This document shows, piece by piece, positions 1,651-21,025 of a stretch of DNA of 21,025 nucleotides. The DNA lies in IMG/VR virus record IMGVR_UViG_3300004097_000075, positions 1-21,025 of that record; one strand, given 5' to 3'. The stretch is from a virus. Both the position numbers and the translations under genes were made by a program. Under the pieces are notes generated by a model. That model saw only the letters and a list, made by a program, of their open reading frames with translations. It was not told the origin of the DNA and searched no databases. Each line of letters begins with the position of its first letter. The first letter of the stretch is position 1.

Positions 1651-4287
1651 ATGGCAACACCAAGAGCTTTAGCAATGAAAAGGCTAAGAGAAAGAGAAGA
1701 ACTAGCTAGACAAGCTGCTTTGTTAGGTCAAAGTAAAAATAAAGGTATTATGTCTAACTTAGGCTCTATAGGTCAGTTTATAGCTAATGATAATAATGAT
1801 TTAGATAATTTGTCATTTTCAACTGTAGATGGTTTAAATGCAACTTTTAAAAACAACAGAGTTAAAGATACTACGCCAAAATACAATGTTGGAAGTACAA
1901 ATATTCAGCCCGTGTTTCCTAATTTTGAAGGGGTTACGTCTGATGATCTTGCTGACCCAAATAAGATAATAGATTTTAAACCTACCTCAACAGCTTTAAC
2001 TTCTTTTATTGAAGAAAACTCAGTTGCTCCAAAAGAAAATCCAAGAGTAACCGCTATGAATAGACTTAAAGAGCAGGCAGAGTTAAATGCATTAATTGAA
2101 GAAAATAAAAAATTACAAAGATTTAGAGGAGATTCTTCAAGAATAGCACCAGCTGGTACAGTAATGCAACCTCGTTGGGATGGAAGTGTAGATCAAAATT
2201 TAAACTACAATATGCCTATGGAGGGTCAAGAGTCAGCTAGAGAAGCTGCTACAAGAAATGGAATATCTCAACAGCAATTAGACGATATTATGCTTTATTC
2301 GGGAAATGAAGACCCTACGTTTGACGAAAATTATGTTTACAACATGGGTGTTACAGATGACGGTACTTTCCCAGACTTACCAAAATTAGGTGATGAGGAT
2401 GCCAGTTTTGATGAAAATTATGTTTACAACATGGGTGTTACAGATGACGGTACTTTCCCAGATTTATTATCTCCTCAACCTTTAGACGGTAGTAATGAAT
2501 TAGAAATAGGACCTGAAACTTTTAAATTACCTGAAGACTACGAAGCATTAGACGAGGTAATGGCAGAATTAGAATTAAACAATCCAGATTTAATTAATGA
2601 AAATGCAGAATTTTGGGAAGCAGAAAATAAAGAGCAGGCAGAATTAGATGCAGAGTCAGAAAGAATAGATAACCTTAATTTATTAGATACAGAAGAGGAT
2701 ATAGTATTACCGGTTGATAATGAAAGTTTTGACCCATCATTAGGTGATGATATTGATGCAAATCCTTTAGATAACACTATTGAAAGTAAGATAATACAAG
2801 AGGATAAGGACAACAGAGAGGCTTACATACAACTTAGTAATTCAATGTCTTCTGAAGATTTGGCAGCTCTAGAGAATGAAGTTAGTGATATTAACTCACA
2901 AACAGATGTAGACGGTCAAGAGGTTACAGAGTCTAAACTATCAGACCTCTTTGGATCCCTAAAGGACATTTTTGGAGTAGACAATAAATCACTTCTTAGA
3001 GCAGCAATAAAATACATAGGTGGTCGAGTGTTTGGTCTTTCTTCAGGTAAAGCTGCACAATTTGCTTGGGCAGGTATTGAGGCTGATATGGCTACTGAGG
3101 CTGCTAAAGGAGCAGATGCTAAAGCTTATCAAGCTAACATGGATGAATACGATAAGATGTATGAGTCTGCAATGTCTAGAAAGGATTTTGAAGAAGCTGA
3201 CAGAATACTTCAAAAGATGAACTCACTATCTGGTATTGAAAAATCAGATTCTGAAAAGTTTGATGATAACTTAAGTTACCTTAACAAGAAATACAAAGAA
3301 GCTGAAAAAGCTAAAGATAAAGTTAAAATGTCTCAAATTGCAAAACAACTTAAGAAAATGCAAGCAGCTGGGATCGATGGAACTAAAGCAGATACTTGGA
3401 TGGGATCTGCTGGGATGTATGATAAGAACGGTACATATGTTGTTAAGCAAGCTATGCAAGTTGAGGGTGAAGGTATAAAAATATATGATGAGTCAGATAA
3501 TACATTTAAATTACCATCAAAGCTTGGTTACAGGGATGCAATTAGAACCCCAAGTAGTGATAAAGGGAATGATACATATGCAGTAGATGAAAGAGTTATA
3601 ACAGACCCTGCAGAATACGGAAGATACTCCACTGAGATACCTAACTCTATTGGTGTCTCACCTAAAGGTGTTCCACAATTTGATGAGGGAAGTGGTGATC
3701 TTAATAAAGCAGCTAGTTTCTCTCATACAGCTATTAAGTCGTTTATGCAAATGGAAGACATTCTAGCACACAGTGATGAAGTTAGACAAGAAATATTTAG
3801 CTTACAATCAGAATTTAGAAAATCTATTGCAGACATGCCTTCTGACAGCGCTATGAAAGGTCTTCTAGGTAAGTTTATTAAGAGAAATATGAGTCCTGCT
3901 GCTAAACTTTGGTTTAATGAGATGAACACTCTTGTTACTTCTAAGTTAAGAAGAGAGACAGGAGCTGCTTATAATAAAGAAGAATTAATCACTACAATGA
4001 ATTTCTTCCCTAATGTCACTGACTACCCTGCAAACTTTAATGAGCTAGATGATCAAGGTAAGACAAACGCTCTTCGTTTTATGGATGTAAGAATGAAACA
4101 GGCTGGTAATTGGATTTTGACTAATGCTCAAGGTTTACAAGCTTACGAGTATCTAGAAGGTTTAAAAGGTGGTTTGTTTAGACCTGATGATGAATGGTTG
4201 GATGCTAACAAAGGCATAATGGAATTTTTAGATGCTCAATACAATCCACAGGTAAGCACTTCAACTCAAGCTTTAATTGAACAATAA
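1651..4287 (+). CDS. Large internal virion protein (gp15-like position), with tandem repeat
   Basis: 878 residues, just longer than T7 gp15. The N-terminus is a basic amphipathic helix (PRALAMKRLREREEL, from residue 4) that recurs in variant form at about 131-145 (PRVTAMNRLKEQAEL). Residues 190-420 are strongly acidic and probably disordered, and hold two near-identical 24-residue repeats at 220-243 and 249-272. About 470-575 is helical and coiled-coil-like, with two Lys/Glu-rich helical hairpins. Near residue 765 lies LRRETGAAYNKEEL followed by a Pro-containing turn, a pattern I associate with phage DNA-ejection/structural proteins. No transmembrane segment or lysozyme motif is apparent. AAGGAG precedes the ATG. 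Role in the virion is inferred from size, position and composition. Confidence 0.6.
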   Translation: MATPRALAMKRLREREELARQAALLGQSKNKGIMSNLGSIGQFIANDNNDLDNLSFSTVDGLNATFKNNRVKDTTPKYNVGSTNIQPVFPNFEGVTSDDLADPNKIIDFKPTSTALTSFIEENSVAPKENPRVTAMNRLKEQAELNALIEENKKLQRFRGDSSRIAPAGTVMQPRWDGSVDQNLNYNMPMEGQESAREAATRNGISQQQLDDIMLYSGNEDPTFDENYVYNMGVTDDGTFPDLPKLGDEDASFDENYVYNMGVTDDGTFPDLLSPQPLDGSNELEIGPETFKLPEDYEALDEVMAELELNNPDLINENAEFWEAENKEQAELDAESERIDNLNLLDTEEDIVLPVDNESFDPSLGDDIDANPLDNTIESKIIQEDKDNREAYIQLSNSMSSEDLAALENEVSDINSQTDVDGQEVTESKLSDLFGSLKDIFGVDNKSLLRAAIKYIGGRVFGLSSGKAAQFAWAGIEADMATEAAKGADAKAYQANMDEYDKMYESAMSRKDFEEADRILQKMNSLSGIEKSDSEKFDDNLSYLNKKYKEAEKAKDKVKMSQIAKQLKKMQAAGIDGTKADTWMGSAGMYDKNGTYVVKQAMQVEGEGIKIYDESDNTFKLPSKLGYRDAIRTPSSDKGNDTYAVDERVITDPAEYGRYSTEIPNSIGVSPKGVPQFDEGSGDLNKAASFSHTAIKSFMQMEDILAHSDEVRQEIFSLQSEFRKSIADMPSDSAMKGLLGKFIKRNMSPAAKLWFNEMNTLVTSKLRRETGAAYNKEELITTMNFFPNVTDYPANFNELDDQGKTNALRFMDVRMKQAGNWILTNAQGLQAYEYLEGLKGGLFRPDDEWLDANKGIMEFLDAQYNPQVSTSTQALIEQ
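2308..2466 (+). repeat. Two-copy direct repeat inside the 878-residue virion gene
   Basis: A unit of about 72 bases at 2308-2379 recurs at 2395-2466, a period of 87 bases or 29 codons. The core of 60 bases (2320-2379 against 2407-2466) differs at only two silent positions, Asp GAC/GAT and GAC/GAT near the end. Both units encode ED[PA][TS]FDENYVYNMG then VTDDGTFPDL. Near-identity at synonymous sites points to a recent in-frame duplication. Confidence 0.9.
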
Positions 4288-4298
4288 TAGGAGTTTAA

Positions 4299-6785
4299 AT
4301 GCAATATACAAAAAAACAACTAGAGAATGCTCTGGTTAGAGCTAATGCAGATCCTGTTAAATATGCTGAAAACATAAAAGAGTTAAAAAGATTATTAGCT
4401 AGTGGGGTTTTTAAAGAAGAAAATTTAGATGGTGGTCAAGGGACTTCTGAGTCTAGTTCAGATAGTCTTGTGTTTGACAAGCTTAATGAAGACGAAGCCT
4501 ACAATGAAGCTTTAATGAAATTTTATAGTGGCAAGGCTGGCGGAGCTGTAAATACAATAGATCAAGGTAAGGGTTTTCGTGAAACTGCAACTTTATCAGA
4601 TTATCAAAGTATTGACAGAGATGCCAGTGGAAATATAACAATGTCCCCTGAAGATTTAAAAGAGAAAAGCTTTGAATTGTTTAATAATGCTTTGCTAAAT
4701 GAGGTAAGTTTAGCTAGATTTGCAAATGAGATAAGCTTAATGTCTCCCGAAGAAAGAGATAACTTAGCATATTTGTATGATGTTTATGAAAGAACTGCTA
4801 TAACTGGAGAAGGGTCTAGGTCAGGTTTTGAACAATTTAAAGACGCTGGAAATTTGCTAACTGCCCCAAGTACTTACGCAGGAGGTTTTTTATTAAAAGG
4901 CGCAATGGCTCCTGCTTTAAAAGCGTCCTTTAGTGCTGCAATGAAAAAGATGTTAAAAGTTGGTGCCAAGGGATTGTCTTCAGCTGAGACAACAGCTTTA
5001 AAAGAAGGAAGCAAAGCACTAGCTGTAAGGTCAGGGAAAGTTGGTGCTGGATATGCCGCTGGGTTTGATGCAGCACAACAAACTGGTGTAGAGATGCAGT
5101 TAGATCCAGAGCAAGAATATTCTTTTGGCAGGACAGCAGCAATGGGAGCTGTAGGTTATGGGGCTGGTAGATTTTTACCACAAGCTTTAAAAGGAGCCGG
5201 TGTAGTTGTAAAGGCTCCGGGAACTTTAATTAATAAAGCTATTCCGGGAGTAGGTAAAGCTATTGCAAGACCATTTCAAACTGTTGGGGGTGGCTTTGTT
5301 AAAGCTTTTGGAGGAGGACCAGCTGCTAAAACACACGTTGGTAAGGAAGGTCAAGAAATTTTTGGATCTACTGGTGATACACAATACGCTGATATTGTAA
5401 ATACTGAAATTAAAAAAGCATCTAAACAAGCCTTTAATAATTTTAAAGAAGCTTTTAGAAACTTAGGTGATTTACATATAAAATTTGGACCTAAAAATGA
5501 TCCTTATGATTTTAACGCTGGGTTACGTTTAGGTGATGAGACTAATTCTTTTGGAGTACCCACACCTGAACAACAATTGAAAGAGTCTAGAGAGTCTGTT
5601 TTTAATTTAATTAATTATATCCAAAGTGTAGAGGCTGGTGTTCCCGGCTGGGGTGGTTTAAAAAATATTACGTTTTTATTAAAAAGAGGTGATATTACAC
5701 CGACTGAAGCTTTAAGAAAAATAAGATCTAAAGTAGGTGCAGCTACAGTTGATAATAGTGAAAAAACAAAAGAATATCGTGATGTTTTTATAAGATTAAA
5801 TGATGAAGTTAGAAAAGTTATGGCTGACGCTGCCAAAAGATCTAAAAAGAAAGATCCTTTTGAAAAATTAGACCGTTTATATCAAGAATTTGTTGAAGCA
5901 AATAATCATAAAAAAATGCAGCAATTAATGGATAAAGACTCTTCTAAAGCAATTAATCAATTAAGATCAGTTGCTACAGGCGCTAAAAACAATTATAAAA
6001 TATTAGAAGAGCATCAAGATAGATTAGAAATTATTAATAAATTTTCTTCTTCGAAAGTTGAAGAAGGATACATTGATAATGTAACAGGTGTTGAATTAAA
6101 AACTGGAGATGTGATACCTAATGAAACTTTAAAACCTGCTATGGATGATGCAATGCGAGGGGTTGTTGGTCATCAAATGTTTCAAGGTGAAAACGCTGCT
6201 GGTTTTAAATCATACTTAAGTACAGATCAAGGTAAAAAAGTCCTTAAAGATTTATTTCCAGATCAACGACAAACTATTGATAGGTTTTCTAAAATATTAA
6301 CTGCAGCAGCAGATAAGACCTCTATGGGTATGTACGCCATGAGAGTTTTAACAGCCGGGTTAATTGGTGTTGGAACTTTAGGTGTATCTACGGGAGGTGC
6401 TTTTACATCTGGTGCAGCTATCGTTGTTATTGAAAGTTTATTAAAATCTCCTTGGTATGGAAAACAAGCTGCAAAAGTGTTTGCAAGGGACAAAACAAAA
6501 AGTGCATCTGAAGCATTTAAATTAGTTAAAATGATGGAAAACAAAGGGTACACTAAAGAACAAGCAAATAAAACTTTAGAACTTATGCTTGGTTCTGCAG
6601 TATGGGCTAGTTTTCTTCAAGATAAAGAAAATAGAGACGGTATAAAAGATGCAGGTTCAAAAATAGGAGACATAGCCCTCAGAGGTATTGAAGAATATGC
6701 ACTACCAACTTTAAAATCTACTGATGAAAAATATTTTCAACCTGTATTTGATACAGTATCAGATATGTTAATAAGGGATAATTAG
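4299..6785 (+). CDS. Large internal virion / ejection protein with membrane-active segments
   Basis: 828 residues. Glycine- and alanine-rich hydrophobic stretches lie at about residues 184-212, 277-325 (GAVGYGAGRFLPQALKGAG is typical) and 681-716 near the C-terminus; the rest is charged and mostly helical. Repeated Gly/Ala stretches in a large soluble-looking protein are typical of podovirus ejection proteins that insert into the host membrane to form a DNA channel. I find no lytic transglycosylase motif such as that at the N-terminus of T7 gp16. It lies between the 878-residue protein and the RNA polymerase, with TAGGAG before its ATG and 11 bases from the previous stop. Function is inferred from composition and place; homology is not recognised. 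Confidence 0.6.
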   Translation: MQYTKKQLENALVRANADPVKYAENIKELKRLLASGVFKEENLDGGQGTSESSSDSLVFDKLNEDEAYNEALMKFYSGKAGGAVNTIDQGKGFRETATLSDYQSIDRDASGNITMSPEDLKEKSFELFNNALLNEVSLARFANEISLMSPEERDNLAYLYDVYERTAITGEGSRSGFEQFKDAGNLLTAPSTYAGGFLLKGAMAPALKASFSAAMKKMLKVGAKGLSSAETTALKEGSKALAVRSGKVGAGYAAGFDAAQQTGVEMQLDPEQEYSFGRTAAMGAVGYGAGRFLPQALKGAGVVVKAPGTLINKAIPGVGKAIARPFQTVGGGFVKAFGGGPAAKTHVGKEGQEIFGSTGDTQYADIVNTEIKKASKQAFNNFKEAFRNLGDLHIKFGPKNDPYDFNAGLRLGDETNSFGVPTPEQQLKESRESVFNLINYIQSVEAGVPGWGGLKNITFLLKRGDITPTEALRKIRSKVGAATVDNSEKTKEYRDVFIRLNDEVRKVMADAAKRSKKKDPFEKLDRLYQEFVEANNHKKMQQLMDKDSSKAINQLRSVATGAKNNYKILEEHQDRLEIINKFSSSKVEEGYIDNVTGVELKTGDVIPNETLKPAMDDAMRGVVGHQMFQGENAAGFKSYLSTDQGKKVLKDLFPDQRQTIDRFSKILTAAADKTSMGMYAMRVLTAGLIGVGTLGVSTGGAFTSGAAIVVIESLLKSPWYGKQAAKVFARDKTKSASEAFKLVKMMENKGYTKEQANKTLELMLGSAVWASFLQDKENRDGIKDAGSKIGDIALRGIEEYALPTLKSTDEKYFQPVFDTVSDMLIRDN

Positions 6786-6793
6786 GAGTACAA

Positions 6794-9700
6794 ATGAACT
6801 TAACGGCATTTACAAATCAATTGTCTAAAGTATTAACTAGAAGACTTTCCAAAGCTATTATTGATGGAAACAAACGTGAAGTAGGTACTATTAGGAAGTT
6901 ACTGGACGACCCCCAAGGTCTCCAGAAGAAAGTAGAAGATATTCAAAAAAGACATCAACAAGGTGAATCATTTGACCAACAAAAAATTAATAATGACATA
7001 GATAAATCTTTCCCTGAGCCTGAAAAGACTTCTTTATCAGGTTCTCAAGTTGTTGAAAATCTTAAAGTAATGGGAACTGATCAAAGTCAAGATGCTGGTA
7101 AATATGCTGACACTAATGGTTTTGTCCCTAACACGTTAAGAGAAATACAAGAGCATGATAGGTTTGATATTGAGACCGTAGATGTAGACGATATTTATAA
7201 AAGTGCAGGTGCTGAGGATTTTAGGATGATTGCCGATAGTCCCAACCCTAGAGCGGACACAGTGCAATCTGAACCTACGGTACCGCCTATTATAGATAAA
7301 AATGGTAAAGTACTAGATGGCAACAATAGACTCCACATAGCTAAGTTAAATAAAGAAGATAGTACTTCTGATGGTAAAGTTGAGATCCTCCGGGGGTCAT
7401 CAACTTTGCAAGATAATGCAAATAATGAAGTTATAGATAGGATTGGATCTTTTGCAGAAAACCTGAAAACTAAAATTGAAATGGATAGACCATCTGTAGC
7501 AACTAAGGTTGGTACTAATGTAGTTGCAAGTCTTAAAAATGTTGCAAACATGCCTCAAAGTGGGTCTTTCATAAAGTCTTTTGCAAAAGCAACTAATAAT
7601 TTTGATCCTAAAATTGTAGACGATGAACTTTATGTTGGTATTGCAATGGATCTTTTAAGGGCTGTAAAAGATAACAAAGGTGGTCGTCCCGGTAAAAAAC
7701 TTACTGAGGTAGACAAATCTGGTCAAACACATGTTGTTACTGCTAAAAATATGAACGAGCTTGCTAAGGATGTAGGCGAGTCTGTAGCTGATCGGATTTT
7801 AAGTAAAGGAGGTGCTCCTTTAAAACCTTGGGAGCAAAGGTACTTAGGGTCTATGATTCTTCAACTTGGTAGGGGTAACTTTGGGGGTAAGTTTTCTGAC
7901 ACTGACTTAGATATTCCTCATTTGTTTAAAGAAAGTACACAACCTAAAGATGTCGGCAAAGGTAAATTTAAAGATCAAAAAATTCTAGAGACTTCTGATT
8001 ATTTTAATACTTGGTATAAAACTAGAAATGGTGGTCATGGGGGAAAATATTGGTTTGATTTATTCCCTCATAATAGATCAGAAAAAGCTGCAAGTCCTAG
8101 ATACCACGGTCCTTGGAAAGTAGATGAAAATCTTAATGTTATAGAAGCACCAAGAGGTGTCGATAAATCTTTAAGGATTGGTGGTGGTAAAGGAGATACT
8201 TCACAAACTAAAGATAATTTAGAAATATTAAATATTTTAGGAAAGCAAAAATTAGGAGTAGATTCAGACAAGTTTGAATATTTTCAACATTTAGGTAGGA
8301 TGGGTGTTTTTAAAGAAGCCGGTATAGATAAAGGATCTTTAGAAATAGCTATTGCGAGAAATAAACTAGACGAAGTAGATGTTCAAGAGCTTACACGTTA
8401 CTACGATAATTTAAAACTTTTAAAAAAGAAGTACAATGATTTAGAAGACGTTGAAAGAATAAAAGAAAATAAACCACCTTTGACCCCATTAGAAAGAGAA
8501 AATTTTGGAAAAGGAGAAAACATAAGAAATGAAATATATCAAAACTATTATAAACCAGCTCCTAAGAAAAATAAAAACAATCCAAACCCTTCTCCGACTG
8601 GAGAAAAAATAGACCTTGACAACAGTGTAGGTGGCTTTGAGTCAGGTAATTCTAATTTTCTAAAAGCTTTACAAATGGCTTCTTTAGACACTTCTAACTT
8701 ATCTGAATTAAATACTATACAAAGAGCTAAGTTTAATAGAATTACAACAGAGATTAAAGAAAGATTTAGAATGGACCCTGAAGGTGCTGAGGTGTACATG
8801 CCTTATTTTCTTGATAGTAGAACTAGAGTTTATCCTTTAGACTCCTCTGGGGCAAATCTTATTAGTGGACTAGGTAGGTTTGGGTATTCAGCTGAAAGAG
8901 CAATGGCTAAACCTATAACTTACAACGATGAGTCTTTTTATGCAATTGTAGATGACTTTCTTAGGTTTGAAGATAACCCTATTGTACAAACAAGGGTAAA
9001 AGGTGATGAGTTAGGTATGAAGAGTACTGCCTCAACTGCCAAAGCTAAAAGAGTATTAAGTGGTAATTACCCTAAAGAAATTGAATTAAAAAATATAATT
9101 CTTCGTGGTACTGGTAAAGGGGTAGCTACAGATCTAGACAGGATGAAATATTGGAAAACTTTTGAAAGTGAGTATTTAACAAGAGCTGAAAATTTATTAA
9201 AAGCAATAGACGCTTCTAAAACAGCTAAAAACTCTGATGAAAGATCAAAAATCTGGAGTAAGTGGTTAAGTAAAAATTCTTGGATAAGAAACATTAAAGA
9301 TCAAGAAGCTTATGTAGCAAATTTGACTGAGATAGGTCGCATAAAAAGAGCTTACGATGGTAATCCTCAAAAAGGAAGTATAGGGGCGTATCCTCAAAAT
9401 AACTCTCATTACTCAACACACTTAATGGAATTAGACGCTTCTGCTTCTGGGTCTCAAGTGTTAGGTGCACAATATAATGATTTAAAACTTCTTGAGTCTG
9501 TTAATGTTATTGTTCCAAAAGAAGGTAAACCTAGAGGTCTCTTAACTAAAGAAGAGATGGATATGGTTCTTGAGGGTGTTGATAACAATGCTGTTGCTAG
9601 AGATTTGTATGTAGAGGTAAAAGTGCATTATGGTAAGAAATTTACCCAAAAAATGACAGAGCTTGAACAAACAAATCCACAATTAGCTCAAATTTATAAA

Positions 9701-10813
9701 GAGCTTACAGAAAGGTATATACAAGTAGGAAGAGGTACAACCAAACCTATAGTCATGAAAGTTCCTTACGGTGCTGGTATGGCTAGGCTTAAAAAGACTA
9801 TGGCATCTTTAATAAGTGGAAAAGATAGGATTCAAATAATGAAAGACTATCAAGGAAGAGTTGAAGATCCTACAACTTTAGTTAAAGATTTTGTAGATTT
9901 TCATTGGGACTCTATGGAGACTTCTTTACAGAATTCCTTAGAAACTCAATACGAGTTTAGAAGATTTTCATCTATTATTGGATCTCTTTACACAGACCTA
10001 GCAGGGTCTTCAGGTAGTCCAAGAAAACCTTACTTGGTTAAGTCACCTACTGGCGGTGAGACTGACTTTACTGTTTTTGCAACTCAAACTGTTCAAACAA
10101 AGGAAGAGACAAGTTTAAGACAATTTCCAAGTTTCGAACAAAAACTTAGAAAAAAGGGTGTTAATAAAGATGGTAGTCCAAAAATGGGGGCTGGTCTTAC
10201 TAAAGTTTATACAACTAGTAAAGTCCCAATGGACCCTAATGATCCAGAAACTATTAAGTTGGTTACTCCGAATAAAAATACCCCAGCTGACACGGTTAAA
10301 AATTTAGAAAAGCGAGGTATTAATTCTTCTAATTTAGAAATGTTTGCAGTAGATGGTAAGATGGTTCAGGAGTTTCCTTTTGCTGGTGGTGGTTCTAAAA
10401 CAATGGCTTCAGCTTTAGCACCTAATGCTGTACACAGTGTAGATGCCGCTTATCTAAGAGAACTTGTTAAAGCTTTACATAAAGAAGGTATTCCAGTTTA
10501 CGTTGTACATGATGCTTTCTTTGTGCTTGCTCCTGATATGAAAAAGACTAAGCAAATAGCTGGTAATGTAATGCTTGAAATGCATAACAATTATAACTTA
10601 AGGGAAGAAATGGTTAAAGGTTTAGCAAGAGCATTAGATATGCCTTTTGATGATGTGCTAAGACAGGTTGATGATATAATGGCAAACCCAACTGCTAAAC
10701 AACAAGCTGATGGAATAAGACCTTACCCTAATGGGTCTTTAGCAAATAAATCAGAAGGACCATTAACAGTCCCTGAAGGATATACAACTGAAAACGTACT
10801 AGTAGGAGGTTAA
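6794..10813 (+). CDS. Probable virion-associated T7-type single-subunit RNA polymerase, with ParB-like N-terminal domain
   Basis: 1339 residues, against 883 for T7 RNA polymerase. The C-terminal half carries its catalytic core. Motif A is FLDSRTRVYP, with D674 matching T7 D537. DASASGSQ at 881-888 matches the T7 DGSCSGIQ segment. Motif B is R-G-T-T-K-x-x-V-M-x-x-x-Y-G, with R980, K984 and Y992 matching T7 R627, K631 and Y639. Then come APNAVHS and motif C VHDAFF, with H1239 and D1240 matching H811 and D812. The polymerase core spans about 610-1310. The N-terminal 600 residues are not T7-like; about 150-205 resembles a ParB/Srx-type fold (VLDGNNRLHIAKL, D175-R179), and 560-600 is a Lys/Asn/Pro linker. 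The gene is last of the large genes in the ejection-protein operon, so packaging in the virion is likely but inferred. GGAG precedes the ATG by 6 bases. Confidence 0.85.
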   Translation: MNLTAFTNQLSKVLTRRLSKAIIDGNKREVGTIRKLLDDPQGLQKKVEDIQKRHQQGESFDQQKINNDIDKSFPEPEKTSLSGSQVVENLKVMGTDQSQDAGKYADTNGFVPNTLREIQEHDRFDIETVDVDDIYKSAGAEDFRMIADSPNPRADTVQSEPTVPPIIDKNGKVLDGNNRLHIAKLNKEDSTSDGKVEILRGSSTLQDNANNEVIDRIGSFAENLKTKIEMDRPSVATKVGTNVVASLKNVANMPQSGSFIKSFAKATNNFDPKIVDDELYVGIAMDLLRAVKDNKGGRPGKKLTEVDKSGQTHVVTAKNMNELAKDVGESVADRILSKGGAPLKPWEQRYLGSMILQLGRGNFGGKFSDTDLDIPHLFKESTQPKDVGKGKFKDQKILETSDYFNTWYKTRNGGHGGKYWFDLFPHNRSEKAASPRYHGPWKVDENLNVIEAPRGVDKSLRIGGGKGDTSQTKDNLEILNILGKQKLGVDSDKFEYFQHLGRMGVFKEAGIDKGSLEIAIARNKLDEVDVQELTRYYDNLKLLKKKYNDLEDVERIKENKPPLTPLERENFGKGENIRNEIYQNYYKPAPKKNKNNPNPSPTGEKIDLDNSVGGFESGNSNFLKALQMASLDTSNLSELNTIQRAKFNRITTEIKERFRMDPEGAEVYMPYFLDSRTRVYPLDSSGANLISGLGRFGYSAERAMAKPITYNDESFYAIVDDFLRFEDNPIVQTRVKGDELGMKSTASTAKAKRVLSGNYPKEIELKNIILRGTGKGVATDLDRMKYWKTFESEYLTRAENLLKAIDASKTAKNSDERSKIWSKWLSKNSWIRNIKDQEAYVANLTEIGRIKRAYDGNPQKGSIGAYPQNNSHYSTHLMELDASASGSQVLGAQYNDLKLLESVNVIVPKEGKPRGLLTKEEMDMVLEGVDNNAVARDLYVEVKVHYGKKFTQKMTELEQTNPQLAQIYKELTERYIQVGRGTTKPIVMKVPYGAGMARLKKTMASLISGKDRIQIMKDYQGRVEDPTTLVKDFVDFHWDSMETSLQNSLETQYEFRRFSSIIGSLYTDLAGSSGSPRKPYLVKSPTGGETDFTVFATQTVQTKEETSLRQFPSFEQKLRKKGVNKDGSPKMGAGLTKVYTTSKVPMDPNDPETIKLVTPNKNTPADTVKNLEKRGINSSNLEMFAVDGKMVQEFPFAGGGSKTMASALAPNAVHSVDAAYLRELVKALHKEGIPVYVVHDAFFVLAPDMKKTKQIAGNVMLEMHNNYNLREEMVKGLARALDMPFDDVLRQVDDIMANPTAKQQADGIRPYPNGSLANKSEGPLTVPEGYTTENVLVGG

Positions 10814-10814
10814 T

Positions 10815-11054
10815 ATGGCAAAAATGTTTAGAGATCATAATATATTATCTGGTATGGGTATAACAGATATAGAGCTATTAAAAGAACACGGTGGACCTGA
10901 GAAGTATGCAGGTACAAATAAGTGTAATACTTGGATGATTAACAACGAGTATAAAGAAAATTTAGCCGCTGGTATACCTGTTCAAGAGTGTAATGCTTTA
11001 AGAAATAAAGCTCAAAGAACTGTAGCTGAAGTAAGACGACAAAGAGGCTACTGA
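10815..11054 (+). CDS. Hypothetical protein, last gene of the virion operon
   Basis: 79 residues, not recognised. It is polar and mostly helical with a basic C-terminal helix (RNKAQRTVAEVRRQRGY). Two cysteines (near residues 37 and 60) do not form a metal motif. GGAGG stands just before the polymerase stop and 6 bases before this ATG, with only one base between the genes, so it is coupled to the polymerase. The bidirectional terminator follows its stop. It could be a small virion or assembly factor; nothing visible decides. Confidence 0.7.
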   Translation: MAKMFRDHNILSGMGITDIELLKEHGGPEKYAGTNKCNTWMINNEYKENLAAGIPVQECNALRNKAQRTVAEVRRQRGY

Positions 11055-12747: not shown

Positions 12748-12879
12748 TTAATTCCAACCAGAGCATCCTAATGAATCGACAGGTGTACATTCAAGCCTCT
12801 TGGCTTCATCAATCTTTGCCTCAAAAACAGCGCAACTTGCTAAAAAAATAGCTAGAACACAAACTAATAATAATTTCAT
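12748..12879 (-). CDS. Tiny predicted lipoprotein (43 residues), possible lysis or surface protein
   Basis: The frame starts at ATG 12879, overlapping the reductase stop as ATGA, and AAGGAG lies 5 bases before it, an excellent ribosome site. The product begins MKLLLVCVLAIFLASC, a textbook lipoprotein signal peptide with an LASC lipobox, so the predicted mature protein is 28 residues starting at Cys16. It has two further cysteines (C31 and C39) and ends SGWN. The family is not recognised. A short lipoprotein close to a holin-like gene could be an outer-membrane spanin, but it lacks the proline-rich stretch of many Rz1 proteins and no inner-membrane partner is seen. It could also protect the infected cell from other phages. 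Confidence 0.75.
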   Translation of the reverse strand: MKLLLVCVLAIFLASCAVFEAKIDEAKRLECTPVDSLGCSGWN

Positions 12880-14840
12880 TCCATCTCCTTTTCCTCTTCA
12901 ACTAAGTCAACCATTTCACATATACTTCCTGTACATGCCAATGTTTTATTGCCAATTGTTGTGTCTGTTAACTCGTACTCACTTATTAAGTCCCAGTCTA
13001 CAGATGAAGGCATTACCTTAGCTAATTTATCGTACTCTTTCTTAGTACAATCTTCATAAGGTGCTTGTTGATACGAGTGATCTGAATGAGGTAAGAAAGA
13101 TACACCACTTACTTCATCAAAATGTTTATAGACCCATGAGCCTACTTCCATCCACTCGTGTTCTCTGACACTTACTGTGACACTTGGTTTGTGCTCACAA
13201 TAGTATCTTTGGTAAGTTAGCCACAACTCTAACTGTTCTATTGCACTTCTATCGTTTCTAAGGATTGCACCTTTTGGAGCCTTAGTAGGAAATGTAAACA
13301 CCTTAACACTGTCAGGCTTCATTACGTCAGCCTCACATGGTATGCCTTGGTCTTCCATTAACTGTGCAATAGGGTCTTTTGCATCTGCTCTTACCCTACG
13401 ATAATAATAGTCGTTGTGTCTAGTGTGGATACCAGACGCTGAATCGACTAGTTGACTTACTGTACCGCTGGGTTTAATAGCAGTTGTTGCTGTAGCCTGA
13501 CTAATTCCTAATAAGCCTGACCAATCTTTGTTGACCTTAACCGTTTCTTTTCTAAGGTCTGATAGAAAGTCTGATAAATTTCTTTTACCGTAATAACCTC
13601 TATCTGTATTACTACCGTTCATAAATGAATTGTCCATAATTCCAGTAAGAGATACACCTAGTAGTGCTTCCTCTTCTGTATTGTGAACCCATTTAGGTCG
13701 TAATCTTTTAATGTTTGTAAGAGAGGCTTGGAATGTTCCAAGTATCGTAGCCAATCTAACTTTTCTAAGTATGTCTTTTTGAGTATCTTCTGCCCTGATA
13801 ACCACTTCTGTTAAATTACAGAACTGACCGTCTCTGAGAATAATCTCACTACAAGGGTTACAGCCAAAGTCATGGTCAGGGTCTCTTCTACCTATAGACG
13901 CTACTTGTTTAATAGCGGCTTCTCTATTAAAGATACCACGCTCACCTGATTTTGACTCATACAGGGATGTCCACTCTTTCATAAATATACCCATGTCAGG
14001 TTTTTCTGTATAACACACGCTGTTATTACTAAGAGCCATCTCTGGTGTATCTGACCACCATTGACCACTCTTGGCATTACGCATGCGCTCATCAGTCAAA
14101 TTACTTAGAGAAATCAATGCACTACGTCTAACACCACCAACGACAACAACCTCTGCAATCTTACACATCATACGGTGACACTCGTAACTAGTAAGTTTCC
14201 TACCACCAGCGTCCTTAAAAATGTTCGTAGCAAAATGAAACAAGTCGATCAAAGGCTCTGGACCACTGGCTCTACCGCCAAATGTTTTAAGCCTAGATCC
14301 TTTTGGTCTTACTTTTGAAAAGTCCCACTTAGGCATTTCACCGTCATAGAGATAGGTAATAAGTTTACGGAAAGCTGATTGCCATCCTTCTTTGCTATCT
14401 TGGACTACTATGGTGTCTTCTACATCTACTTGTTCTTCAGGAACTTCAGGTAGTTTATTTACATGTTGCCTCTCTACACTAAAGCCCACACCAGTACCGT
14501 GCATAAGTATAAACAGACATTCGTCAAATGCTTTAGGGTGGTCTACGCTTAAGTAAGCGCAATTGTAACCTGCTATGTGGTTCTTAGCTAAGGCAGGTCC
14601 TGCAGTCATTAGCGCTCTCATGCTAGGCATTACATCTAAATTGAGAACAGCTTCTTCAAGAATCTTACGAGTCTTGGGAACTAGTTCTTGTTCTGTATTG
14701 TCTTTTAAGTGTTGCTCCATAAAGTCAAAGTATCGAGCTACAGTCTCTTCCCACGTCTCTCTCCTGTTTTTCTCAGGTAGCCACCTTGCATACCTGCTTA
14801 GGGCTATAAAATTTTGATAATCTGTTGCTAATTTTTTCAT
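12876..14840 (-). CDS. Class II (adenosylcobalamin-dependent) ribonucleotide reductase, monomeric RTPR type
   Basis: 654 residues, shorter than the 739 of the Lactobacillus leichmannii enzyme. It reduces ribonucleoside triphosphates to dNTPs for phage replication, using coenzyme B12 to generate a thiyl radical. All five expected cysteines are visible: C94 (GYNCAYLSV) and C341 (FCNL) as the reducing pair, C330 in NPCSEII as the radical site with E332 following, and C636 and C641 (ACTGSIC) near the C-terminus for reactivation. The C330-C341 spacing matches C408-C419 of the Lactobacillus enzyme. GGVRRSA (about 235-241) and PSGTVSQL are further family segments. No NrdB-like partner is needed or seen. 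GAGG precedes the ATG. Confidence 0.93.
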   Translation of the reverse strand: MKKLATDYQNFIALSRYARWLPEKNRRETWEETVARYFDFMEQHLKDNTEQELVPKTRKILEEAVLNLDVMPSMRALMTAGPALAKNHIAGYNCAYLSVDHPKAFDECLFILMHGTGVGFSVERQHVNKLPEVPEEQVDVEDTIVVQDSKEGWQSAFRKLITYLYDGEMPKWDFSKVRPKGSRLKTFGGRASGPEPLIDLFHFATNIFKDAGGRKLTSYECHRMMCKIAEVVVVGGVRRSALISLSNLTDERMRNAKSGQWWSDTPEMALSNNSVCYTEKPDMGIFMKEWTSLYESKSGERGIFNREAAIKQVASIGRRDPDHDFGCNPCSEIILRDGQFCNLTEVVIRAEDTQKDILRKVRLATILGTFQASLTNIKRLRPKWVHNTEEEALLGVSLTGIMDNSFMNGSNTDRGYYGKRNLSDFLSDLRKETVKVNKDWSGLLGISQATATTAIKPSGTVSQLVDSASGIHTRHNDYYYRRVRADAKDPIAQLMEDQGIPCEADVMKPDSVKVFTFPTKAPKGAILRNDRSAIEQLELWLTYQRYYCEHKPSVTVSVREHEWMEVGSWVYKHFDEVSGVSFLPHSDHSYQQAPYEDCTKKEYDKLAKVMPSSVDWDLISEYELTDTTIGNKTLACTGSICEMVDLVEEEKEME

Positions 14841-20932: not shown

Positions 20933-20956
20933 TTTTAGTCTCCTCTAGCGAACCAT

Positions 20957-20977
20957 CCTCTATAAGATGTCATATAA
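20957..20977 (-). promoter_or_regulatory. Candidate T7-like phage promoter upstream of the acidic-protein gene
   Basis: Read on the - strand, the 17 bases from 20977 to 20961 followed by G at 20960 agree with the T7 class III consensus at about 13 of 20 positions, including the ATA block at -15 to -13, GAC at -11 to -9, TATA at -4 to -1 and G at +1, all in register. It lies in a 45-bp gap before a gene with a good ribosome site. Weak matches (10-11 of 19) occur inside genes elsewhere, and this polymerase's recognition region is rebuilt, so this is only a candidate. Confidence 0.35.
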
Positions 20978-21025
20978 TTAAGAAATAATATACTTAGATT
21001 CTAAAACTTCTTCCAAATCTAAGTC
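20978..21025 (-). CDS. 3' end of an upstream gene (partial)
   Basis: The frame entering from the right edge reads DLDLEEVLESKYIIS and stops with TAA at 20978-20980; the other two - frames close quickly. The composition is protein-like and helical, and a gene here would leave a 45-bp gap before the next one. Too short to identify. Confidence 0.4.
   Translation of the reverse strand, partial: DLDLEEVLESKYIIS
20992..21024. repeat. Short inverted repeat at the right edge
   Basis: A perfect 9-bp inverted repeat pairs ACTTAGATT at 20992-21000 with AATCTAAGT at 21016-21024 around a 15-base loop. It is AT-rich and probably lies within the end of a gene. On the - strand it is followed by ATATTATTTCTTAATT, so it might be a weak terminator or a hairpin recognition signal. 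Chance is a real alternative in such AT-rich DNA. Confidence 0.35.

Follow-up and report, generated by a model that had tools for sequence, protein, structure and literature searches.

A Bacterial Virus That Appears to Carry a Second, Very Different RNA Polymerase among Its Probably Injected Proteins, beside a T7-Type Early RNA Polymerase

The window analyzed here (the whole 21,025-nt stretch of viral DNA) encodes a 1339-aa single-subunit RNA polymerase (RNAP) which, at the position of the T7 specificity loop, carries a segment more than twice as long as that of T7. This raises the question of what kind of polymerase it is, and whether it reads promoters in the way that T7 RNAP does. Coordinates of the relevant features are given in Table 1.

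Table 1. Features of the window that bear on the two RNA polymerases.
Feature	Position	Strand	Basis or remark
878-aa putative ejection protein, 0 Cys	1651..4287	+	Position, Cys count; homologue in L067
828-aa putative ejection protein, 0 Cys	4299..6785	+	Ends 8 nt ahead of RNAP gene
1339-aa single-subunit RNAP gene, 0 Cys	6794..10813	+	Pfam RNA_pol, phrog_414, PDB fold matches, Cys count
Catalytic Asp D881, motif A (T7 D537 position)	9434..9436	+	Invariant column; T7 numbering
Motif B R980, K984, Y992 (T7 R627, K631, Y639 positions)	9731..9769	+	Invariant columns; T7 numbering
125-residue stretch SPTGG...AL ahead of APN, T7 specificity-loop position	10043..10417	+	Motif spacing, alignment
Main insert relative to short-loop group, residues ~1118-1159, Lys/Pro-rich, hypervariable	10145..10270 (boundaries approximate)	+	Alignment
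Second insert, residues 1193-1205, just ahead of APN, missing in short-loop group	10370..10408	+	Alignment
Motif C His-Asp H1239-D1240 (T7 H811-D812 positions)	10508..10513	+	Invariant columns; T7 numbering
C-terminal Gly-Gly, family-conserved	10805..10810	+	32/32 sequences
79-aa ORF immediately 3' of RNAP	10815..11054	+	Diverges along with RNAP
25-nt T7-register promoter-like motif ATTATATGACATCTTATA followed by GAGGATG, before 63-aa ORF	20954..20978	-	0 expected by chance
3' end of early T7-like RNAP gene	20978..21025	-	Complete copy in near-identical contig, L023:2446-4680

A divergent, cysteine-free RNA polymerase in the virion operon

The C-terminal half of the 1339-aa protein was matched by the Pfam RNA_pol family (PF00940) at 1.2e-11, with a score of 44.5 bits against a curated cut-off of 22, and by the PHROG RNA polymerase family phrog_414 at 4.7e-21, which places the polymerase domain at residues ~600-1339. 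Because a single-sequence comparison with T7 RNAP stays at noise level (E 0.35), the protein must be counted as a very divergent member of the family. Positions D881, R980, K984, Y992, H1239, and D1240 are nonetheless invariant in a 10-sequence alignment, and both polymerase homology and an intact set of catalytic residues are present. The family set was drawn from 33 loci, of which L060 gave no match and the others yielded 32 sequences from 31 contigs (L048 and L067 are one contig); some of these relatives are 1038 aa long. When the whole protein was searched against annotated phages, a weak match of its C-terminal part to Aer_P220 was all that came up, and no distant relatives were found in bacterial genomes. 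The large N-terminal extension has no Pfam match; a ParB-like N-terminus, of the DdrB-like kind known in polyvalent proteins, had been suspected by eye, and residues 1-331 produced no match to Pfam ParB up to an E-value of 10.

The RNAP is the third large gene of a plus-strand virion operon, after those for the 878-aa and 828-aa putative ejection proteins, and the same context was found in L067 and L089, where the function of the neighbors is likewise putative. The minus strand of the window carries replication genes for a class II ribonucleotide reductase (RNR), a DNA polymerase A, a primase-helicase, and an exonuclease. None of the three large plus-strand proteins contains a single cysteine, whereas Cys makes up 1.6-2.0% of the minus-strand RNR, DNA polymerase, and primase-helicase. 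Across the 32 sequences of the virion-operon RNAP family there is no cysteine in 21,902 residues; for comparison, T7 RNAP has 12, the early RNAP described below 7, and the RNAP of Roseobacter phage CRP-7 14. Homologues of the 878-aa and 828-aa proteins also lack cysteine, as do the ejection-type proteins gp33-gp35 of CRP-7, and an RNAP profile run against the ejection proteins of 1.208.B, CVT22, and CRP-7 (gp33-gp35 included) found no RNAP. Since other podovirus ejection proteins share the lack of cysteine, it marks the class of ejection proteins and not RNAP function. The third place in the ejection operon and the missing cysteine together rule out the usual Autographivirus-type early RNAP. 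In N4-like phages, the third ejection-protein place is occupied by the virion RNAP (vRNAP), according to PMC12633501.

Other genes of the window gave further observations. The 79-aa ORF next to the RNAP gene is 63-97% identical across records that keep more than 90% identity in RNR and DNA polymerase, and its product is possibly a partner of the virion RNAP. The gene for the class II (B12-dependent) RNR lies at 12876-14840 on the minus strand, between the polymerase and HNH genes. No relatives of a 238-aa protein were found.

Length, structure, and variability of the specificity-loop region

In T7 RNAP (NC_001604), TPDG begins at residue 729 and APN at residue 779, and the 50 residues from the one to the other hold the promoter-contacting specificity loop. 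The window protein has SPTGGETDF from residue 1084 (nt 10043) onward and APNAVHS from residue 1209 (nt 10418). The original prediction of about 125 residues here against about 50 in T7 is thus exact (residues 1084-1208 against 729-778), with an excess of 75. It had also described the extra residues as rich in Lys, Pro, and Asp, which is borne out for Lys (14.7% of residues 1109-1183 against 9.6% of the whole protein) and Pro (9.3% against 4.7%) but not for Asp (5.3% against 7.2%); the summed content of the three residues is attained by 5% of all 75-residue windows in the ORF. Nor is the long loop a peculiarity of a single sequence. It measures 116-129 residues in 10 of the 32 family sequences and 71-75 in 15, the remaining seven being truncated and without the start motif. 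The enlargement is therefore confined to the group of the window. In the alignment, the insert is flanked by two conserved anchors, (S/G)PxG and APN, which in T7 mark the two sides of the specificity loop.

AlphaFold models were generated for residues 232-1339 of the window protein and for a 1038-aa relative (L086), both with a mean pLDDT of 65-66 and with most of the loop below 50. Because the insert of the window protein was itself modelled at a pLDDT below 50, its placement on the specificity hairpin rests on the alignment. In this low-confidence part of the model, beta strands at residues 1099-1107 and 1137-1145 resemble a longer hairpin, after which come helices at residues 1151-1184. The best fold matches of both models were T7 and mitochondrial RNAPs. 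For the window model, T7 scored Z 20.9 and N4 mini-vRNAP Z 14.2; for the L086 model, the corresponding scores were 27.5 and 17.9. By these scores, the predicted structure of the virion-operon RNAP appears nearer to T7 than to N4.

Amino-acid differences inside and outside the loop were compared for 12 pairs of sequences, of which three gave a strong excess in the loop, one a weak excess, three more distant pairs a moderate excess, and five none. The strong cases are window/L002 (14/111 in the loop against 2/131 outside, p 5e-4), L001/L002 (21/111 against 2/131, p 3e-6), and L007/L008 (14/91 against 1/152, p 6e-6). The excess is weak for window/L001 (7/125 against 4/325, p 0.013, uncorrected for the 12 pairs compared), and p ranges from 0.0005 to 0.011 for the more distant pairs window/L059, window/L048, and L061/L070. 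No excess was found for L028/L061, L028/L068, window/L007, and both short-loop pairs. The dN/dS of the loop in close pairs, 0.48-0.78, is above the value outside it and, since it stays below 1, does not point to positive selection. The simplest reading of the hypervariability is that the loop adapts as the early promoters change. Because the segment is specific to its lineage and varies strongly even between close relatives, promoter recognition by the virion RNAP probably differs from that of T7, and this part of the original prediction is plausible, given that the insert aligns within the loop.

The identity of the RNAP does not track the relatedness of the genomes. The RNR proteins of L002 and L059 are identical, yet their RNAPs are 53% identical past the loop; for the window and L028, the RNR is 96% identical and the RNAP past the loop 39%. 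In trees of 13 rows, some with long branches, the two groups of RNAP alleles are each monophyletic by RNAP (99/99), while three changes are needed to place them on the RNR tree. Whole RNAP alleles have therefore been exchanged between closely related phages.

A second, T7-like polymerase and the promoter-like motif that it probably reads

The contig L023, which is 100% identical to the window in shared proteins, supplies the complete early RNAP, a protein of 744 aa (phrog_414 1e-112, Pfam RNA_pol 3e-52) with a loop of 48 residues, the T7 length. Among 15 records searched, this RNAP was present in 12, seven of which also carry the virion-operon RNAP on the same contig, and fragments explain part of the remaining records without both. 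A gene for an AAA+ ATPase (AAA_2; L023:1221-2375, L035:2639-3967) adjoins that of the early RNAP; by eye, its product is ClpX-like with a CxxC-rich N-terminus, and a copy of the promoter-like motif and a strong inverted repeat lie ahead of the gene.

The motif is in T7 register, with GAC at -11 to -9 and TATA at -4 to -1, and was found ahead of the 63-aa ORF in all distinct upstream sequences of records at least 76% identical in that ORF (L042 is cut by the contig end). Second copies precede the AAA gene in L023, L034, and L035, with a variant in L043, and the 32.4-kb sister record G001 (loci L048 and L219) has three copies. In the more distant L053 and L055, the two copies per record share a variant of their own, as expected for sites of one polymerase. 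Likeness to the T7 promoter amounts to 14/23 positions, which is weak alone, being attained by 9 of 23,643 stretches, and the short-loop group has no T7-like motif ahead of the 63-aa ORF. The motif is constant across records in which the virion RNAP shows 37-98% identity to that of the window. The early RNAPs of these records are 83-100% identical and their loop hardly varies; on these grounds we assign the motif to the early RNAP, which is most likely its reader. Where the motif differs (L053 and L055), the loop of the early RNAP differs too. In L055, the motif is changed at -11/-10, yet R and N are kept at the positions of T7 R746 and N748, which contact the promoter in T7, and this argues against a simple T7 contact rule. 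The motif also occurs ~320 nt ahead of a 173-aa ORF in eight contigs, one of which (L183) also has the genes for terminase, portal, scaffold, and capsid. No contig was found that joins these to the window group, so its role as a late promoter is presumptive. No promoter for the virion-operon RNAP was found on the contigs at hand, and for none of them is it known that it extends to the left end of the genome.

In the early regions of the short-loop sister phages L220, L221, L222, L087, and L089, most often in the gaps between early genes, there are 13 distinct elements that resemble hammerhead ribozymes, with the layout CGAAAC-hairpin-GTC-hairpin-CTGATGAGA, in the order of type II hammerheads and with a loop-to-tail pseudoknot. 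Two-sided changes occur in 12/17 pairs, and 99.5% of cells pair. Against Rfam, they gave no match at the gathering score, and no hammerhead family matched them even at E-values up to 5; related permuted hammerheads are described in PMC10085705. A repeated intergenic element, TTAATAAATATTGTCCATTTAATACAAGTGGGCAATGCTGATTAAATAA, has two copies in L223 (the L055 contig), at 496-666 and 1271-1328, and L222 has a repeated element that resembles it.

Possible roles of the virion-operon polymerase

We consider it fairly probable that the protein is a packaged and ejected RNAP for early transcription, with a fast-diversifying promoter-reading loop. The virion RNAP would be made late, packaged, and ejected with the two other Cys-free ejection proteins, and would then start early transcription, much like N4 vRNAP. 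The T7-like RNAP of the early region would next read T7-register promoters of the replication genes and probably of the late genes. The loop in the window group diversifies quickly and whole RNAP alleles are exchanged, most likely tracking changes in the early promoters that the enzyme reads. Packaging, ejection, the reading of early promoters, and the loop as the determinant of specificity are what we infer here.

It is quite unlikely that the enlarged loop recognizes small hairpins in DNA that is supercoiled or single-stranded, in the manner of N4; the original prediction had named a hairpin or single-stranded signal, as in N4, as a possibility. The place in the virion operon and the lack of cysteine favor this, an argument made for N4-type vRNAPs in PMC10747016, and the fold searches did retrieve N4 mini-vRNAP, although T7 structures outscore it for both models. 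In G001, moreover, seven distinct AATCAAAGCC-hairpin-TTTTTACTTRTTATT elements followed by TTTTT stand ahead of early genes. With loops of at least 4 nt and a T-run, these are more like intrinsic terminators, or possibly RNA processing or promoter sites, and they were not found in L023, L034, L035, and L043. In the early regions of these nearest relatives, short GC-containing hairpins occur at the level of chance (3 against 2.15 expected in L023, 3 against 1.85 in L034, 3 against 1.7 in L035, and 1 against 1.9 in L043), which leaves N4-style promoters unsupported there. A reading in which the T7-register motif TATGACATCTTATAGAG is recognized by the enlarged RNAP, its insert being irrelevant to specificity, is very unlikely: this is the sole repeated promoter-like element found, but it remains identical while the virion RNAPs diverge, and it is the loop of the early RNAP that stays constant or changes in step with it.

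The insert might instead be a surface loop for packaging, for binding of the 79-aa neighbor, or for escape from a host inhibitor, with promoters read conventionally. The neighbor does diverge in step with the RNAP, the model has helices after the hairpin, and hypervariability would fit contact with a host or phage factor; we nevertheless hold this to be unlikely, given the position of the insert between the anchors of the T7 specificity loop and the modelled strands of a longer hairpin, low as their confidence is. As improbable as a hairpin-reading loop is an RNAP made late that is never packaged and boosts late transcription only. Packaging of the protein is itself deduced, but its complete lack of cysteine and its slot in the ejection operon speak against such a role, as does the second RNAP already there for middle and late genes.

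Among known systems, the gp50 vRNAP of coliphage N4 (Schitoviridae) is, like the window RNAP, a single-subunit enzyme whose gene comes third among the large ones of an ejection operon, in a phage that has a further RNAP. The resemblance to N4 suspected at the outset thus holds for gene context, including the missing cysteine. N4 RNAPII, however, is a two-subunit RNAP, whereas the second RNAP here is one T7-like chain, and the fold scores with N4 lie below those with T7, while hairpins are at chance in near relatives and recur in one sister record. N4 vRNAP is also ~3,500 aa long, as given in PMC12633501, compared with 1339 aa here with the polymerase at the C-terminal end. With T7 RNAP (Autographiviridae), the window RNAP has in common the PF00940 fold and the positions D537, R627, K631, Y639, H811, and D812; it differs in its loop (125 against 50), its lack of Cys, its place among virion genes, and its large N-terminal extension. 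Zobellviridae and phage StenR_269 have large Cys-free ORFs in the same operon place, which have been proposed as vRNAPs from their size, lack of Cys, and helix content (PMC10747016); unlike in that proposal, the polymerase domain is identified here. The DNA polymerase of the window is nearest to that of a Zobellviridae Vibrio phage (36%). N4-like vRNAPs are treated among polyvalent proteins in PMC5512222. As far as our searches show, it is for N4-like phages that an ejected RNAP has been described whose polymerase domain is identified, and searches of titles and opening lines of abstracts, in which subscription literature is thinly covered, found no publication on a compact virion RNAP alongside a T7-like RNAP.

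If the packaged early-transcription reading is true, a small phage from a podovirus group other than the N4-like phages can have a compact virion RNAP in its gp16-type slot and a full T7-like RNAP as well. The exchanged alleles and the variable loop make a natural series on the change of promoter specificity in single-subunit RNAPs, and the virion RNAP alleles could yield new orthogonal polymerases. More speculatively, and in our view rather unlikely, the virion RNAP may be an exchangeable, rapidly evolving promoter-reading module, the alleles of near-identical phages each being paired with their own early promoters. If so, the injected enzyme would start its own genome only, which would amount to transcriptional self-recognition or exclusion at genome entry.
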